24,047 nt of DNA from IMG/VR virus record IMGVR_UViG_3300032087_001350, positions 1-24,047 of that record. One strand, 5' to 3'. The number at the start of each line of letters is the position of its first letter. The stretch's first letter is position 1. Source of the stretch: a virus. Below the pieces are notes generated by a model. The model made no database searches. It was not told where the DNA came from and worked only from the letters and a program-made list of their open reading frames with translations. Below, piece after piece: positions 4,115-22,575 of this stretch. A program made the translations under genes and the position numbers.

Positions 4115-4915
4115 ATGGCAGAACTAACTACAGTAGAAATTAACGAACCTACACAAGGGGAGATTGAACCAGCTTCCGAAACAGTAGAGGAACAACCACA
4201 ACCAGAGCATATTGCTACAGACTCTCAGGAAGAGGGAGCAGTAGAGGAACAAACTGAAGAAAGCTCATCACTAAAGCTTGGTCAAGGTGAACGACCCGAA
4301 GGATTACCTGATAAGTTTAACAGTATTGAAGACCTTGTTAATTCGTATCAGGAACTAGAAACTAAATTATCTCAGGGCAATCAGGAAACAACTACTAACG
4401 AAAACGGTGAAGAAACTGTAGAGGTTAGTACATCTGAAGTTCTTACGTATGCATCTGAAGAGTTTCACGGAAACGGAGAGCTTTCTAGGGATACATATGA
4501 AACACTAGCTGAGTTTGGAATTAGTGAAGATATTGTTAATAGTTACATTGCTGGTCAACAAGCTCTTACCGCTCAACGAACAACAGAAATTAAAGGGGCG
4601 GCCAATGGTGAGTACGAACAGATGGGAGAGTGGGCAGTACAAAACCTACCACCTGACGAACTAGAAGCTTACAACAACGTAGTAGAAGGATTAGATATTA
4701 ATGCTGCTAAGATGGCAGTTAGTGGTCTGTATGCTCGTTATAAATCAGGAACATCACAACCTAACCTTACTATGGGCAACACTAGTGGTGCTGGTGTAAC
4801 TCCTTTTGCGGATATGCAAGCTGTAAGAGCAGCTATGAGTGATCCACGTTATAAATCAGGAGATAAAGCATATCATGCAGAGGTTGACAGAAGACTCAAG
4901 GTAAGTAACTTTTAA
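4115..4915 (+). CDS. Capsid assembly scaffolding protein, T7 gp9-like
   Basis: This guides assembly of the procapsid and leaves before or during packaging. Its 266 residues are shorter than T7 gp9 (about 307). The first ~110 residues are Glu/Gln/Thr-rich and strongly acidic, as in the family. Then follow RPEGLPDKFNSIEDLVNSYQELETKL, the conserved YETLAEFGIS...VNSYIAGQQAL segment, and a C-terminal capsid-interacting end with ADMQAVRAAMSDPRYKSGDKAYHAEVDRRL. The start at 4115 has GAGGA six bases upstream, inside the end of the portal gene. The order portal-scaffold supports the call. Confidence 0.95.
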   Translation: MAELTTVEINEPTQGEIEPASETVEEQPQPEHIATDSQEEGAVEEQTEESSSLKLGQGERPEGLPDKFNSIEDLVNSYQELETKLSQGNQETTTNENGEETVEVSTSEVLTYASEEFHGNGELSRDTYETLAEFGISEDIVNSYIAGQQALTAQRTTEIKGAANGEYEQMGEWAVQNLPPDELEAYNNVVEGLDINAAKMAVSGLYARYKSGTSQPNLTMGNTSGAGVTPFADMQAVRAAMSDPRYKSGDKAYHAEVDRRLKVSNF

Positions 4916-4920
4916 ATATT

Positions 4921-5097
4921 ATGGAATTCGTACAATCAAATTGGGAAGGTATTGTCCTTGTCCTTACATCAGCAGTAGCATTAGCTTCAGCAGTAGCCGC
5001 TTTAACTCCTACCCCGAAGGATGATGGCATTGTTAAAAAGTTATACGCATTAATCGATACACTTGCAATAAACGTAGGTAAAGCCAAGGATAAGTGA
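4921..5097 (+). CDS. Small one-helix membrane protein, holin-like candidate (58 aa)
   Basis: ATG at 4921 opens 58 codons ending in TGA at 5095-5097. After a short N-terminus (MEFVQSNWEG) there is a hydrophobic stretch of about 20 residues (IVLVLTSAVALASAVAAL), then TPTPKDD and a basic amphipathic tail with LYALIDTLAINVGKAKDK. One transmembrane helix, a charged tail and small size fit a holin-like or other phage membrane protein. The next gene overlaps its stop (GTGA). The location between scaffold and capsid is unusual for a lysis gene. It could instead be a virion assembly membrane protein; no enzymatic role is expected. Confidence 0.7.
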   Translation: MEFVQSNWEGIVLVLTSAVALASAVAALTPTPKDDGIVKKLYALIDTLAINVGKAKDK

Positions 5098-5300
5098 AGA
5101 TACTCTTAGGTATACTTACTTCTATTTTAGACGCACTATTTAAAAACGTAATCCGTGAAGTTAAAAAACCAGTCAAAGCTAAAGATGCTCCTATCAGTCC
5201 TGATCGTGAGCGTTTTCTTGAGCGGATGCGGGAACACGAGGGTAGTCTTCGTGGACTCTCAAAGTCAGATTCTAAGAGTAGGACCAAAGGTAAAGGGTAA
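5094..5300 (+). CDS. Small basic protein with hydrophobic N-terminus, unknown (68 aa)
   Basis: It starts at GTG 5094, overlapping the stop of the upstream membrane protein gene by four bases. The N-terminus (KILLGILTSILDALFKNVI) is hydrophobic or amphipathic and could be a membrane anchor. The rest is charged (REVKKPVKAKDAP, PDRERFLERMREHEGSLRG) and ends in a Lys/Arg-rich tail. I do not recognise a family. Because a lipoprotein gene starts inside it in another frame, the pair recalls inner- and outer-membrane spanin genes (Rz/Rz1). It is much shorter than a typical Rz and lacks a clear long coiled coil, so that role is only a possibility. Confidence 0.6.
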   Translation: MKILLGILTSILDALFKNVIREVKKPVKAKDAPISPDRERFLERMREHEGSLRGLSKSDSKSRTKGKG

Positions 5301-5400
5301 AGTATACTTTTGGAATGGTGAAGAGTGGGAGTTATCAGCAAATAAAGTTGAATATCCCGAAGGACATCATATGGGTGCTTTAGAACCCGAAGAAGAATAG
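5155..5400 (+). CDS. Phage lipoprotein, out-of-phase overlap with upstream gene (81 aa)
   Basis: The protein has a complete lipoprotein signal: a basic start (KLKNQSKLK), a hydrophobic core (MLLSVLIVSVF) and lipobox L-S-G-C with Cys25 encoded at 5227-5229. Gly follows the Cys, so outer-membrane sorting is expected. The mature part has RVVFVDSQSQILRVGPKVKGKVYFWNGEEWELS and YPEGH, a small beta-domain pattern I recall from lipoproteins in phage lysis regions. GTG 5155 is chosen because it supplies the charged n-region; ATG 5185 is an alternative giving a shorter signal. Its first 146 bases overlap the preceding gene in another frame, as Rz1 overlaps Rz. The role could be outer-membrane spanin-like or superinfection exclusion; the sequence does not decide. 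Confidence 0.7.
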   Translation: MKLKNQSKLKMLLSVLIVSVFLSGCGNTRVVFVDSQSQILRVGPKVKGKVYFWNGEEWELSANKVEYPEGHHMGALEPEEE

Positions 5401-5455
5401 TCCTACTATATGAAGATTTTTAGTTAGTATTATTGGTTTGGTATTACCTATCATG

Positions 5456-5508
5456 CCCCTCATCAAGGTTTTGCTTTCTTTCCCTTGGTGAGGGGTTTTA
5501 TTTTTTTT
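5456..5508 (+). terminator. Strong intrinsic terminator upstream of the capsid gene
   Basis: A 13-bp stem pairs CCCCTCATCAAGG (5456-5468) with CCTTGGTGAGGGG (5483-5495) with one G-U pair. It closes a 14-base loop and is followed by TTTTATTTTTTTT (5496-5508). It ends the portal-scaffold-small gene transcript, so capsid expression should depend on readthrough or on a promoter within 5509-5621. Confidence 0.92.
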
Positions 5509-5533: not shown

Positions 5534-5558
5534 GAAGCCCACTACGGTGGATAACTTC
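5534..5558 (+). other. Small stem-loop in capsid mRNA leader
   Basis: CCAC-TACG-GTGG (5539-5550) forms a perfect 4-bp stem with a tetraloop, and flanking GAAG (5534-5537) can pair with CTTC (5555-5558). If transcription starts near 5531 this would sit at the 5' end of the capsid message, where a hairpin commonly stabilises mRNA. The stem is short, so the call is tentative. Confidence 0.4.
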
Positions 5559-5621: not shown

Positions 5622-6686
5622 ATGGCAAACGGAGACACTACTCCATCACGGGTTGGCCTTAAACAAGGCGGCTCAGATAATCAAGAACTATTCCTTAAAA
5701 AGTTTAGTGGTGAGATTCTTACCACATTTGAGGAAAAGAACATCATGAAACCTCTGCACACGATCCGTACTATTAGTGACGGTAAGTCTGCACAGTTTCC
5801 TGTAACTGGCGTTGCTTCTGCAAAGTACCACACCGTTGGTCAAAACATTGCAGATAGCGGTAACAGTTACCTATCGGATATTGCTAAAAGCGAGAAGATC
5901 ATCAGCATCGACAAAGTTCTGTTGGCTTCTTCTTTCCTAGCTAACATCGATGACGTTATGAATCATTATGATATTCGTAGTGTCTATGCAAATGAGTTGG
6001 GCAACGCTCTTGCTAATCGTTTTGATACTGCTGTTATCAAGACCTTTATCGCAGCCGCTCGTTCAGCAGCAAACCTAACAGGTGGAGCCGCTGGCGATCG
6101 TCTAGACGTTGGTCAAAATGTATTCCTGTCTGACTCTAGTTACTCTGCTGGTGATGACACGGATGCCGCTGGCGATCCTACTGGTGCTGAGCTTATTACT
6201 GCTCTCTTCAGTTCCGCTCAAAAGCTAGACGAAAACGATGTTCCTAGTGATGGTCGTTTCTGCGTTATTCGTCCCGAAGAGTACTACAAGCTAATTACTG
6301 GTGGTGCAACTTCTGGTATTAACGTAGCAAACAGCGCACTTAACACCGATGTTGGCGGACAAGGTTCTGTTGCTCAAGGTATCATTCCTCAAATTGCAGG
6401 AATTAACATCTTCAAGAGCAATCATGTGCCTTCCACAAACACTATCTCTGGTGATGATGACAATGCTGTTAATGATCCCTTCGGTGCTGGAAACGGCTAC
6501 AACGGAGACTTCACTACCACATTGGGTATTGTCGGTCATTCTGCCGCTGTTGGTACGGTCAAGCTTCTTGATCTTGCTACTGAGTCGGAATATCAGATTG
6601 AGCGTCAAGGTACGCTGTTCGTAGCTAAGTACGCAATGGGTCACGGAATCCTCCGTCCTGAGTGTGCTATCGAACTCATCAAGTAA
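5622..6686 (+). CDS. Major capsid protein, T7 gp10A-like
   Basis: This is the main shell protein with an HK97-type fold; 354 residues compares with 345 for T7 gp10A. Family landmarks are the N-terminal arm with LFLKKFSGEILTTFEE, the TIRTISDGKSAQFPVTG strand, YHTVGQNI, the KIISIDKVLLASSFLANIDD helix region, a central DENDVPSDGRFCVIRPEEYYKL segment, and the C-terminal FVAKYAMGHGILRPECAIELIK. It has its own leader of about 110 bases after a strong terminator and is followed by another stem-loop, which isolates it as a separately expressed unit. Only a weak AGAAAGA is seen before ATG 5622. No slippery site for a gp10B-like frameshift product was found at its end. Confidence 0.97.
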   Translation: MANGDTTPSRVGLKQGGSDNQELFLKKFSGEILTTFEEKNIMKPLHTIRTISDGKSAQFPVTGVASAKYHTVGQNIADSGNSYLSDIAKSEKIISIDKVLLASSFLANIDDVMNHYDIRSVYANELGNALANRFDTAVIKTFIAAARSAANLTGGAAGDRLDVGQNVFLSDSSYSAGDDTDAAGDPTGAELITALFSSAQKLDENDVPSDGRFCVIRPEEYYKLITGGATSGINVANSALNTDVGGQGSVAQGIIPQIAGINIFKSNHVPSTNTISGDDDNAVNDPFGAGNGYNGDFTTTLGIVGHSAAVGTVKLLDLATESEYQIERQGTLFVAKYAMGHGILRPECAIELIK

Positions 6687-19401: not shown

Positions 19402-19671
19402 ATGGAACCAATGGCTGAACAAATCTCACACTTCCTTGACAGTATATTAGCTGTTGTTCTTGGTGTATTCGGTTGGATCGGTAAAAAGTTTAGTGATAGA
19501 CTTGATAGCGATGAGAAACGTTTAACAAAGATAGAAGTAGAACTAGCTGCTCAACATGAACGTGATATATCCGTTGAGAAACGTATGCAAGGTCTGGAAC
19601 AAAAACTAGAAGCAATGAACGATAAGCTTGATAGACTTCTAGAATTAATAATGAAAAATCAAAATAGATGA
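19402..19671 (+). CDS. Membrane protein with coiled coil, holin-like, gp17.5 position
   Basis: The 89-residue protein has one N-terminal transmembrane helix (about 11-29, LDSILAVVLGVFGWIGKKF). A long charged amphipathic helix follows, probably a coiled coil, with heptad-like repeats (LTKIEVELAAQHERDISVEK, MQGLEQKLEAMNDKLDRLLEL). T7 encodes its holin, gp17.5, between fibre and small terminase, exactly this position, so a holin role is likely. Rz-like spanins have a similar layout and cannot be excluded. AGGA lies five bases before ATG 19402, which favours that start over ATG 19411. Its end overlaps small terminase (ATGA). Confidence 0.72.
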   Translation: MEPMAEQISHFLDSILAVVLGVFGWIGKKFSDRLDSDEKRLTKIEVELAAQHERDISVEKRMQGLEQKLEAMNDKLDRLLELIMKNQNR

Positions 19672-19907: not shown

Positions 19908-21573
19908 CCAGTTAAAAGACTTTAGGAACTTTCTGTTTGTTGTATGGAAACATCTTAACCTACCTGATCCTACTCCCATACAATACGATATAGCTGACTA
20001 TATGCAACATGGACCCAAGAGGTCTGTAGTAGAAGCTTTTAGAGGAGTCGGTAAAAGTTGGATATGTTCAGCTTATGTTGTTCATCAACTACTACTTGAT
20101 CCATCCAAGAACTTCCTAGTTGTATCAGCATCCAAGACTCGTTCTGATGACTTTAGTACGTTTACATTACGGATCATTAGAGAGATTCCTATGCTTAACT
20201 CCCTACTACCAAAGGATGGACAGAGGTTTAGTAAGGTATCATTTGATGTAGGTCTAGCTCCTCCAGCCCATGCTCCCTCCGTAAAGAGTCTAGGTATAAC
20301 ATCTCAGTTAACAGGTAGTCGTGCTGATGTTATTGTAGCTGACGATATTGAAGTACCTAATAACTCTCAGACTCAGGGAATGAGGGATAAACTTGATGAA
20401 CAAGTAAAAGAGTTTGAAGCTATTTTAAAACCGTTAGATTCATCTAAAATATTATTTCTTGGTACTCCTCAATGTGAAGATTCTATCTATAACAAACTAC
20501 GAAATAGAGGTTACTCATTAAAAATTTGGCCATCTGAATATGTATCAGAGAAACAAGCTAACGATCTATATGGTAATGAATTAGCTGATATAATCAGTAA
20601 GGAATCATCTAACGAAGCTCTTATAGGTACATCTACTGAACCAACTAGGTTTAACATGAATGACCTTGAGGAACGAAAGCTTTCTTATGGACGTTCTGGT
20701 TACTCGTTACAGTTCATGCTTAATCCACGTCTTAGTGATGAGGATAGATATCCGTTAAAGATTAACGATCTAATAGTAATGGATATTGATAAAGATGTAG
20801 CTCCAGAAAAAGTAGTATGGGCATCTGCTCCTGATTTAGCGTTTGATAACAGTCTTCCTAATGTAGGGTTTAACGGTGATCGTTTTTATAGACCTTTTCA
20901 AACAGTTGGAGATATGGTTCCCTTTACTGGTTCTGTAATGTCTATTGACCCATCTGGTAGAGGTAGGGATGAAACAGCTTATTCAGTTGTTAAGATGTTA
21001 AATGGTCAACTATTTGTACCAGAGTCAGGAGGTCTTAAAGGTGGATACTCTGAGGAAACATTAAAGGAACTAGCTAGGATTGCTAAAGCTCAATCAGTTA
21101 ACCAGATCGTTATAGAGTCTAACATGGGTGATGGTATGTTTACCGAACTCTTTAAACCTATACTTAGTACCATCTATCCCTGTAGTACAGAAGAGGTTCG
21201 TCAAAGTATCCAAAAGGAAAAACGTATAGTTGATACATTAGAACCTGTACTTAACCAACATAAACTAATTATTGATCCTAAAGTAATCCGTAACGATTAT
21301 CAGTCAGCATTAGTTTATCCAACTGAAAGACAATCTAGATATATGTTAATGTATCAATTATCTAGGATTACTAAATACAGAGGAGCTTTACTACAGGATG
21401 ACCGATTAGATGCTCTTGCTATTGCTGTTAACTACTGGGTAGAACAAATGAATCAGGATGCTAACGAAAAGATTAAAGATCGTAAACGTGAACTGTTTGA
21501 TGAAGAAATAGAAAAGTTTAGAGCATCAGCATTTGGTGGAGCTACTGGTAACTCACTTTGGAAATGGATGTAA
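19900..21573 (+). CDS. Terminase large subunit, T7 gp19-like
   Basis: This is the DNA-packaging motor and headful/terminus nuclease (557 residues; T7 gp19 has 586). The ATPase has an adenine-binding region (PIQYDIADYM), Walker A FRGVGKS at residues 47-53 and Walker B VIVADDIE at 144-151 with the catalytic Glu. A coupling-type motif ILFLGTP follows. The RNase H-like nuclease has the expected acidic residues: Asp350 (SIDPSGRGRDE), Glu406 (IVIESNMGDG) and Asp504 (DDRLDALA). ATG 19900 is chosen because MDDQLKDFRNFLFVVWKHL is the family N-terminus; upstream in-frame sequence is inside small terminase. All catalytic motifs are intact. Confidence 0.98.
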   Translation: MDDQLKDFRNFLFVVWKHLNLPDPTPIQYDIADYMQHGPKRSVVEAFRGVGKSWICSAYVVHQLLLDPSKNFLVVSASKTRSDDFSTFTLRIIREIPMLNSLLPKDGQRFSKVSFDVGLAPPAHAPSVKSLGITSQLTGSRADVIVADDIEVPNNSQTQGMRDKLDEQVKEFEAILKPLDSSKILFLGTPQCEDSIYNKLRNRGYSLKIWPSEYVSEKQANDLYGNELADIISKESSNEALIGTSTEPTRFNMNDLEERKLSYGRSGYSLQFMLNPRLSDEDRYPLKINDLIVMDIDKDVAPEKVVWASAPDLAFDNSLPNVGFNGDRFYRPFQTVGDMVPFTGSVMSIDPSGRGRDETAYSVVKMLNGQLFVPESGGLKGGYSEETLKELARIAKAQSVNQIVIESNMGDGMFTELFKPILSTIYPCSTEEVRQSIQKEKRIVDTLEPVLNQHKLIIDPKVIRNDYQSALVYPTERQSRYMLMYQLSRITKYRGALLQDDRLDALAIAVNYWVEQMNQDANEKIKDRKRELFDEEIEKFRASAFGGATGNSLWKWM

Positions 21574-21574
21574 C

Positions 21575-21880
21575 GTGGTTAATTTTAATACAGGTTATGA
21601 ACCTCCAACAGAGGTAACGGAAGTTGTTAAAGACCTGTTTGTACAGGCTGTTAAAGTTCAAATAAAGGCACTTATGAGTAAAGACTATGATGATAATATT
21701 AATTCAGTAAATACTCAAACAGATCAAATATTAGAGGACTTACTTGGTAAGGTTGCTTACTATATGAATGAATTTGATATTAACGAGTATACACTTATGG
21801 GAATCCTAGAAGCTGTTAAACTTGAAGTTAAAGAATCTATGACTTGGGAAATTGATATAAGAGACGATGAAGAAACCTGA
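21575..21880 (+). CDS. Acidic hypothetical protein (101 aa)
   Basis: I do not recognise the family. The chosen start is GTG 21575, one base after the terminase stop; the longer in-frame opening at 21533 would lie inside terminase. The protein is acidic and helical, with TEVTEVVKDLFVQAVKVQIK, TDQILEDLLGKVAYYMNEFD and EYTLMGILEAVKLEVKESM. There is no signal peptide or membrane segment. Its 3' end overlaps the next, strongly basic protein gene by 14 bases. An acidic protein followed by basic ones could indicate a complex, but this is speculation. Confidence 0.75.
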   Translation: MVNFNTGYEPPTEVTEVVKDLFVQAVKVQIKALMSKDYDDNINSVNTQTDQILEDLLGKVAYYMNEFDINEYTLMGILEAVKLEVKESMTWEIDIRDDEET

Positions 21881-22175
21881 TCCACGACTTAAACGAGCTG
21901 GTGTTAGCGGTTATAATAAACCTAAACGTACACCATCTCATCCAACTAAAAGCCATATAGTAGTAGCTAAATCTGGTGGTAAAATCAAAACCATAAGGTT
22001 TGGACAACAAGGTGTTAAAACCAATCAAACAGTAGGACAACGAAAAGCTTTTAAAAGTAGACACGCTAAGAACATTGCTAAAGGCAAAATGAGTGCAGCC
22101 TATTGGGCAGATAAAGCTAAATGGTCACCTAGTAAAACTAAATCTCCAAGTATGAAATGGAAGAAAGGTAGTTAA
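21867..22175 (+). CDS. Highly basic small protein, DUF6321-like
   Basis: The 102 residues contain about 27 Lys+Arg and only two acidic residues. Recognisable family landmarks are MKKPDPRLKRAGVSGYNKPK, the HIVVAKSGGKIKTIRFGQQG core and KSRHAKNIAKGKMSAAYWAD with KW near the end. I recall this pattern as a domain of unknown function in marine phages, including cyanophages. The charge suggests nucleic-acid binding. It overlaps the upstream gene and is the first of three consecutive basic products. Confidence 0.8.
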   Translation: MKKPDPRLKRAGVSGYNKPKRTPSHPTKSHIVVAKSGGKIKTIRFGQQGVKTNQTVGQRKAFKSRHAKNIAKGKMSAAYWADKAKWSPSKTKSPSMKWKKGS

Positions 22176-22179
22176 TAAC

Positions 22180-22575
22180 ATGGCATATACAAAACCTACA
22201 GTAAGGGAACGTATAAAGAACCGTATAATGGCTGGTAATAAAGGTGGTAAAGCTGGTCAATGGTCTGCACGTAAAGCTCAATTATTAGCTCTTGAATACA
22301 AAAAGAAAGGTGGAGGATACTCTGGATCAAAGACTAAGAAACAAAAGAGTCTTACTAAATGGACTAAAGAGAAGTGGGGAACCAAGTCTGGTAAACCTTC
22401 TACTCAAGGACCAAAAGCTACTGGCGAAAGATACCTACCAGAAAAAGCCAGAAAAGCCTTATCTAGCAAACAATACAAAGCTACTTCAGCAAAGAAACGT
22501 ATGGATGCTAAGAAAGGTAAACAGTTTTCTAAACAACCAAAGAACATAGCAAAGATAACCAAAAGATATCGATGA
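22180..22575 (+). CDS. Highly basic small protein, DUF5872-like
   Basis: The 131 residues have very high Lys content and almost no acidic residues. The N-terminal half carries a pattern I recognise from marine phages and some large viruses: RERIKNRIMAGNKGGKAGQW, SARKAQLLALEYKKKGGGY, KKQKSLTKWTKEKWGTKSGK and RYLPEKARKAL. The function of the family is unknown; DNA binding or packing with the genome is a reasonable guess. The start is ATG 22180, four bases after the previous stop. Its stop overlaps a tiny basic ORF (ATGA). Confidence 0.82.
   Translation: MAYTKPTVRERIKNRIMAGNKGGKAGQWSARKAQLLALEYKKKGGGYSGSKTKKQKSLTKWTKEKWGTKSGKPSTQGPKATGERYLPEKARKALSSKQYKATSAKKRMDAKKGKQFSKQPKNIAKITKRYR

Follow-up and report, generated by a model that had tools for sequence, protein, structure and literature searches.

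The closest described counterparts of the locus analysed here are the spanin gene pairs of phages lambda (Rz/Rz1) and P2 (LysB/LysC), in which a small gene is followed, within a lysis region, by an out-of-frame overlapping gene for an outer-membrane lipoprotein. The i-spanin of such a pair has an N-terminal transmembrane domain (TMD) and a periplasmic domain, the o-spanin is a small protein with a lipoprotein signal peptide and a lipobox, and the two genes may be embedded, overlapped or adjacent; the overlapped class is described in PMC6139136. Unimolecular spanins of the T1 gp11 type carry a lipobox and a C-terminal TMD in one protein. According to PMC12819732, which cites Kongari 2018, recognisable spanins are missing from about 13% of the tailed phages that infect Gram-negative hosts. 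For Pseudomonas phage LUZ100, its authors found none after screening the ORFs for membrane localisation signals (PMC10134795). Phage phiKT has a disruptin, described as a short, cationic and amphipathic peptide of antimicrobial type which acts on the outer membrane once the endolysin has been released (PMC12819732). Here we describe a three-gene cassette at 4921-5400 which, judged from sequence, is probably (we estimate roughly 0.7) a transferable late lysis module whose target would be the outer membrane, as with spanins, and which occupies the interval between the scaffold and capsid genes. Spanin screens seek a TMD i-spanin beside a lipoprotein, and a cassette of this type would escape them, as it did in LUZ100.

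Gene layout and conservation

The window, by which we mean the whole analysed stretch of 24,047 nucleotides, comes from the late region of a marine T7-like phage; the 24-kb virus record is probably a fragment. Its gene order is that of T7: portal, scaffold, capsid, tail tubular proteins, internal virion proteins, fibre and terminase. The features that concern us are the following.

4115-4915, + strand: scaffold gene, T7 gp9-like, upstream border of the slot (Pfam Phage_T7_Capsid, 3.9e-13)
4921-5097, + strand: ORF1, 58 aa, one TMD
5094-5300, + strand: ORF2, 68 aa, GTG start, net charge +8
5155-5400, + strand: ORF3, 81-aa predicted lipoprotein, GTG start, lipobox LSGC
about 5455-5496, + strand: intrinsic terminator closing the cassette (pattern match and fold)
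5622-6686, + strand: major capsid protein gene, T7 gp10-like, downstream border of the slot (Pfam Gp10A-like, 1.5e-65)
19402-19671, + strand: 89-aa membrane/coiled-coil protein at the T7 gp17.5 (holin) place, directly before TerS

The start of ORF2 lies over the stop of ORF1 (overlap of 4 nt), and ORF3 starts 61 nt inside ORF2, overlaps it out of frame by 146 nt and ends beyond it. ORF2 and ORF3 thus have the arrangement of the overlapped class of spanin genes. The sequence-only reading had reported three tiny overlapping genes closed by a strong terminator, and both observations hold. All three ORFs, with identical overlaps, are kept in the closest IMG/VR relatives (L004-L011 and L091), and the terminator hairpin folds at -25.4 kcal/mol (z = -4.4 against shuffles) with a U-run on its 3' side. 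That reading had named two findings that would speak against it, a lack of conservation in related genomes and homologues with a proven structural role; the first is contradicted by these relatives, and no such homologue was found. The choice of the GTG at 5155 as the start of ORF3 is supported by L007 and L011, which have an ATG at that position.

Substitution patterns show that ORF1 (dN/dS 0.07) and the part of ORF3 beyond the overlap (0.06) are under strong purifying selection. Inside the overlap ORF3 is the constrained frame, with a dN/dS of 0.37; for the frame of ORF2 the value is 1.06, so that constraint on the C-terminal half of that protein is not evident, whereas the stretch of ORF2 before the overlap is constrained (0.34). 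Synonymous change falls to 0.12-0.22 per site inside the 146-nt overlap, as expected from double coding; ORF1 and the remainder of ORF3 have 0.66-0.71. In the near-identical relative L004 a further basic ORF, of 51 aa, stands between ORF3 and the terminator (its positions 6273-6428), which is a recent gain or loss within the slot.

Properties of the three proteins

Lipobox and TMD calls were made throughout with simple scripts, not with SignalP or DeepTMHMM. None of the three products belongs to a family in Pfam or NCBIfam. ORF1 has a predicted TMD at about residues 11-29, a TPTPKDD hinge and a C-terminal amphipathic helix, in agreement with its earlier description as a one-helix membrane protein. 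With a membrane-insertion estimate of +0.16 kcal/mol, it is the only product of the cassette with a convincing TMD. It matches PHROG 9685 (E = 1.2e-12), a family without assigned function; its PHROG matches are only to families without assigned function (9685, 402 and 13051), and no holin family is matched.

ORF2 had been described as a basic membrane-anchored peptide. The basic character is borne out by its net charge of +8; the anchoring is not, since the protein has an amphipathic N-terminal helix whose best segment scores +4.7 kcal/mol for membrane insertion, compared with -2.3 for the lambda Rz control and +0.16 for ORF1. Its charges favour a cytoplasmic C-terminus. ORF2 therefore does not show the i-spanin combination of N-terminal TMD and periplasmic domain, is not a canonical i-spanin, and the pair that it forms with ORF3 is not filed as a canonical two-component spanin. 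Some relatives of ORF2 are neutral or acidic (net charge 0 in L105 and -4 in L115).

ORF3, previously read as a lipoprotein, has the small size, lipoprotein signal peptide and lipobox of an o-spanin. The LSGC motif occupies residues 22-25, its Cys25 is invariant in the relatives, and ORF3 is the sole + strand ORF of at least 40 aa in the window to pass the lipobox filter. Spanin profiles match over the signal peptide region only (PHROG 3198, E = 0.018), a tblastn search against 50,697 phage records returned no real match for ORF3 or for its L107 form, and a sequence search of the PDB gave no family. An AlphaFold2 model built from 12 sequences predicts a beta-rich mature domain, with a mean pLDDT of 57 and about 75 over residues 41-70. 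Compared with the PDB, this weak model gave nothing at Z of 2 or more; compared with a viral library by Foldseek, it gave one significant match, an unnamed 83-aa protein with 40% identity that is apparently a plain homologue.

The likeness to P2 LysB/LysC and lambda Rz/Rz1 thus lies in the succession of a small gene and an out-of-frame overlapping gene for a predicted outer-membrane lipoprotein, and in the recognisable Rz-like o-spanins carried by sister cassettes (see below). The locus differs from them in that ORF2 lacks the N-terminal TMD of an i-spanin, that the mature domain of this particular ORF3 is predicted to be beta-rich and gave no spanin sequence match, and that there is an additional conserved TMD protein, ORF1. 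The ORF2/ORF3 pair would, at most, work like a two-component spanin.

Linkage to lysis genes in other phages

An alignment search found at least 585 relatives of ORF1 in IMG/VR; bacterial genome contigs, many of them alphaproteobacterial, contributed 16. The family is spread over T7-like and very different phages. The order ORF1, overlapping ORF2 and out-of-frame lipoprotein is repeated across these loci. A lipoprotein ORF starts between -20 and +130 nt from the ORF1 stop in 42 of 62 ORF1 loci, compared with 7 of 596 other gene ends on the same contigs; the Fisher p of 1e-43 is overstated by the relatedness of the ORF1 loci, but the effect is still large. No other companion accompanies ORF1 as consistently as the lipoprotein. 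The proteins at the ORF3 position fall into at least four unrelated-looking families. In phage contig L099 the lipoprotein is matched by an Rz-like spanin profile (PHROG 8971, 3.7e-11).

Endolysin genes also recur as neighbours. In L145 the triad runs straight into an Amidase_3 endolysin (8.5e-23), and in L105 one small transmembrane gene stands between the triad and such an endolysin (1.3e-15). Of 40 ORF1 clusters from phages that are not T7-like, at least 18 have a recognised endolysin within 2.5 kb, a lower bound because the local search used few seeds, and among 74 ORF1-neighbour proteins Pfam recognised Amidase_3 in 9, phage lysozyme in 8 and GH108 in 2. Many phages have ORF1 relatives with no recognised endolysin or lipoprotein nearby.

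In Vibrio phage phi 2 the order is a holin-like gene (PHROG 14453, 9e-4), an amidase, ORF1 (PHROG 9685, 6e-31), ORF2 (PHROG 9219, 8e-23), one gene on the - strand and an Rz-like spanin lipoprotein (PHROG 8971, 3.3e-31). ORF1, ORF2 and an o-spanin-like lipoprotein follow each other as in the window; unlike there, the module is found 3' of the amidase gene and not beside the capsid gene, and the lipoprotein gene does not overlap ORF2. LUZ100 has the same arrangement in the same scaffold-capsid slot: its ORF1 homologue, gp37, comes first and is followed, with the same 4-nt overlap, by an unannotated GTG ORF (record 20275-20511) and a lipoprotein ORF out of frame with it (record 20342-20617), the 3' part of which is covered by gp38, annotated as a hypothetical protein. 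Whereas ORF3 of the window matches spanins in its signal peptide region only, the LUZ100 lipoprotein is clearly Rz-like, matching over most of its length (PHROG 1275, 4.5e-12). We regard record positions 20275-20617 (18192-18534 of L084) as a candidate spanin pair, the two products being putative partners. At +3.9 kcal/mol, the GTG ORF too is without a convincing transmembrane segment; this would account for its having escaped the authors' screen.

The scaffold-capsid interval

Among 80 capsid relatives, 68 had enough of the scaffold-capsid interval readable. Eight, the closest relatives, carry the window-type cassette, 26 carry a protein with a lipobox and a C-terminal TMD, 33 carry a third cassette, one matches both of the other types, and none is empty. 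As every one of the 68 intervals holds one of three membrane/lipoprotein cassettes, the interval is an exchangeable lysis slot of this T7-like group and not the site of a one-off insertion; to call the cassette inserted, as had been done, is misleading for these marine phages. In the literature searched there was no account of a lysis cassette between the scaffold and capsid genes of marine T7-like phages. T7's own Rz/Rz1 place, between TerS and TerL, holds no gene in the window, where TerS and TerL overlap.

The second type consists of a protein of about 140 aa with a lipobox and a C-terminal hydrophobic segment (about +0.8 to +1.1 kcal/mol), together with a small transmembrane protein. Its predicted layout is that of a unimolecular spanin of the T1 gp11 type, and its occurrence in the same slot suggests that it does the same job as the window's cassette. 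ORF3 of the window has no C-terminal TMD. The u-spanin-like protein stands with a membrane protein of 34-56 aa in L012-L015, L018, L061, L069-L071 and others; the cassette of the L012 group had no match in PHROGs, Pfam or phage records. The third type consists of a one-TMD protein and a membrane protein of 155 aa. In L016, L017, L021, L065-L067 and L081-L083 the 155-aa multi-TM protein (MGELLMLFITGGGSTAMG...) is accompanied by a long second ORF in another frame with a lipobox-like LLLSGC, which is possibly an embedded o-spanin or merely a frame-shifted image of the TMD.

Proposed function and alternative explanations

The lysis-type function proposed in the sequence-only reading is supported by the occurrence of ORF1 relatives near endolysins and Rz-like spanins and by the exchange with other membrane/lipoprotein cassettes in the slot; the cassette belongs to a widespread, unannotated lysis module. 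Its genes would be expressed together with the late structural genes. ORF3 would most likely be an outer-membrane lipoprotein with the role of an o-spanin. ORF2, encoded by the overlapped gene, would be its partner on the inner side, and ORF1 would contribute an inner-membrane component with a single TMD, either holin/antiholin-like or an anchor for ORF2. Once a holin and an endolysin encoded elsewhere had opened the inner membrane and the wall, the outer-membrane-tethered ORF3 and the cationic ORF2 would cause rupture of the outer membrane. Several findings count against this reading: ORF2 has no convincing TMD, the spanin matches of ORF3 are confined to its signal peptide region, its mature domain has no PDB match, and many ORF1 relatives have no recognised endolysin or lipoprotein nearby. 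Nor was an endolysin domain recognised in the whole window or in relative G004 (L173, L174); Amidase_2 is absent from 11 relative records, and Pfam gave no hydrolase either in the unassigned genes scanned from a relative of 37 kb or in the window's pair of large internal virion proteins.

The alternative that survives best, possible though on the unlikely side, is that ORF1 is the true holin, that ORF2 and ORF3 are regulators or accessory membrane proteins, and that the 19402 protein is not a holin. It would agree with the convincing TMD of ORF1, unique within the cassette, with the endolysin genes adjoining ORF1 relatives in many phages, and with the weak holin likeness of the 19402 protein. 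The latter had been put forward as a second holin-like protein at the usual place. The place is indeed the usual one, but the match to the holin family PHROG 1296 is weak (E = 0.003) and the best match is PHROG 462, a 'lipoprotein' family (9e-7); the protein is possibly a holin. Against ORF1 as the holin stand its most consistent companion, a lipoprotein, and the separate holins beside ORF1 relatives in Vibrio phage phi 2 and in LUZ100 (PHROG 920, 5.7e-11). The same coexistence suggests that ORF1 may serve as an additional component of the inner membrane and not as a second holin; the earlier suggestion of two membrane-acting (holin) systems is not established.

Returning to the spanin-type module, a more specific form of it is rather doubtful at present: a three-part system with no canonical TMD i-spanin, in which the PHROG 9685 TMD protein would anchor an amphipathic peripheral partner that acts with the overlapping lipoprotein. 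If true, it would provide the lysis step that is missing from phages described as having no spanins, LUZ100 among them. The work also offers a testable role for PHROG families without assigned function (9685 and 9219) and makes ORF1 a marker for lysis modules in uncultured marine phages.

It is improbable that ORF2 acts by itself as a disruptin, attacking the outer membrane after release of the endolysin with ORF3 and ORF1 as accessories. The small size, charge of +8, amphipathic N-terminus and lack of a TMD would suit this role, and the likeness to the phiKT peptide is one of description; a disruptin does not need the overlapping lipoprotein with which ORF2 is paired, and not all ORF2 relatives are cationic.

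Superinfection exclusion or envelope protection, in which ORF3 and its membrane partners are produced late and ORF3 hides a receptor or keeps DNA from entering, is very improbable. A role like that of exclusion proteins such as T5 Llp would suit a small lipoprotein of the outer membrane, but the late-operon position, the association of the cassette with endolysins and Rz-like spanins elsewhere among phages and the exchange with a u-spanin-like protein all point to lysis; ORF1-ORF3 matched no exclusion family, and nothing was found in favour of this suggestion of the earlier reading. Virion or capsid-assembly accessory proteins, suggested by the position between scaffold and capsid genes, or functionless genes are hardly credible in view of the signal peptide and lipobox of ORF3, the strong purifying selection, and the ORF1 relatives, several in whole triads, that lie far from capsid genes in unrelated phages (L145, Azospirillum phage Cd and L107, a 167-kb contig with the whole triad).

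Other observations

Between the terminator and the capsid gene, a small hairpin at 5535-5557 (AGCCCACTACGGTGGATAACTT) has the form CCAC-TACG-GTGG with a UNCG-type loop. Its stem covaries in relatives (CCCG/CGGG, CCCT/AGGG, CCAT/ATGG and CCTG/CAGG) and is followed by a conserved A-AACT. Rfam gave no match in the window, this hairpin included; the hairpin may be a leader element of the capsid mRNA. The region 3' of the large terminase encodes two small proteins, both very basic, at 21867-22175 (102 aa) and 22180-22575 (131 aa).
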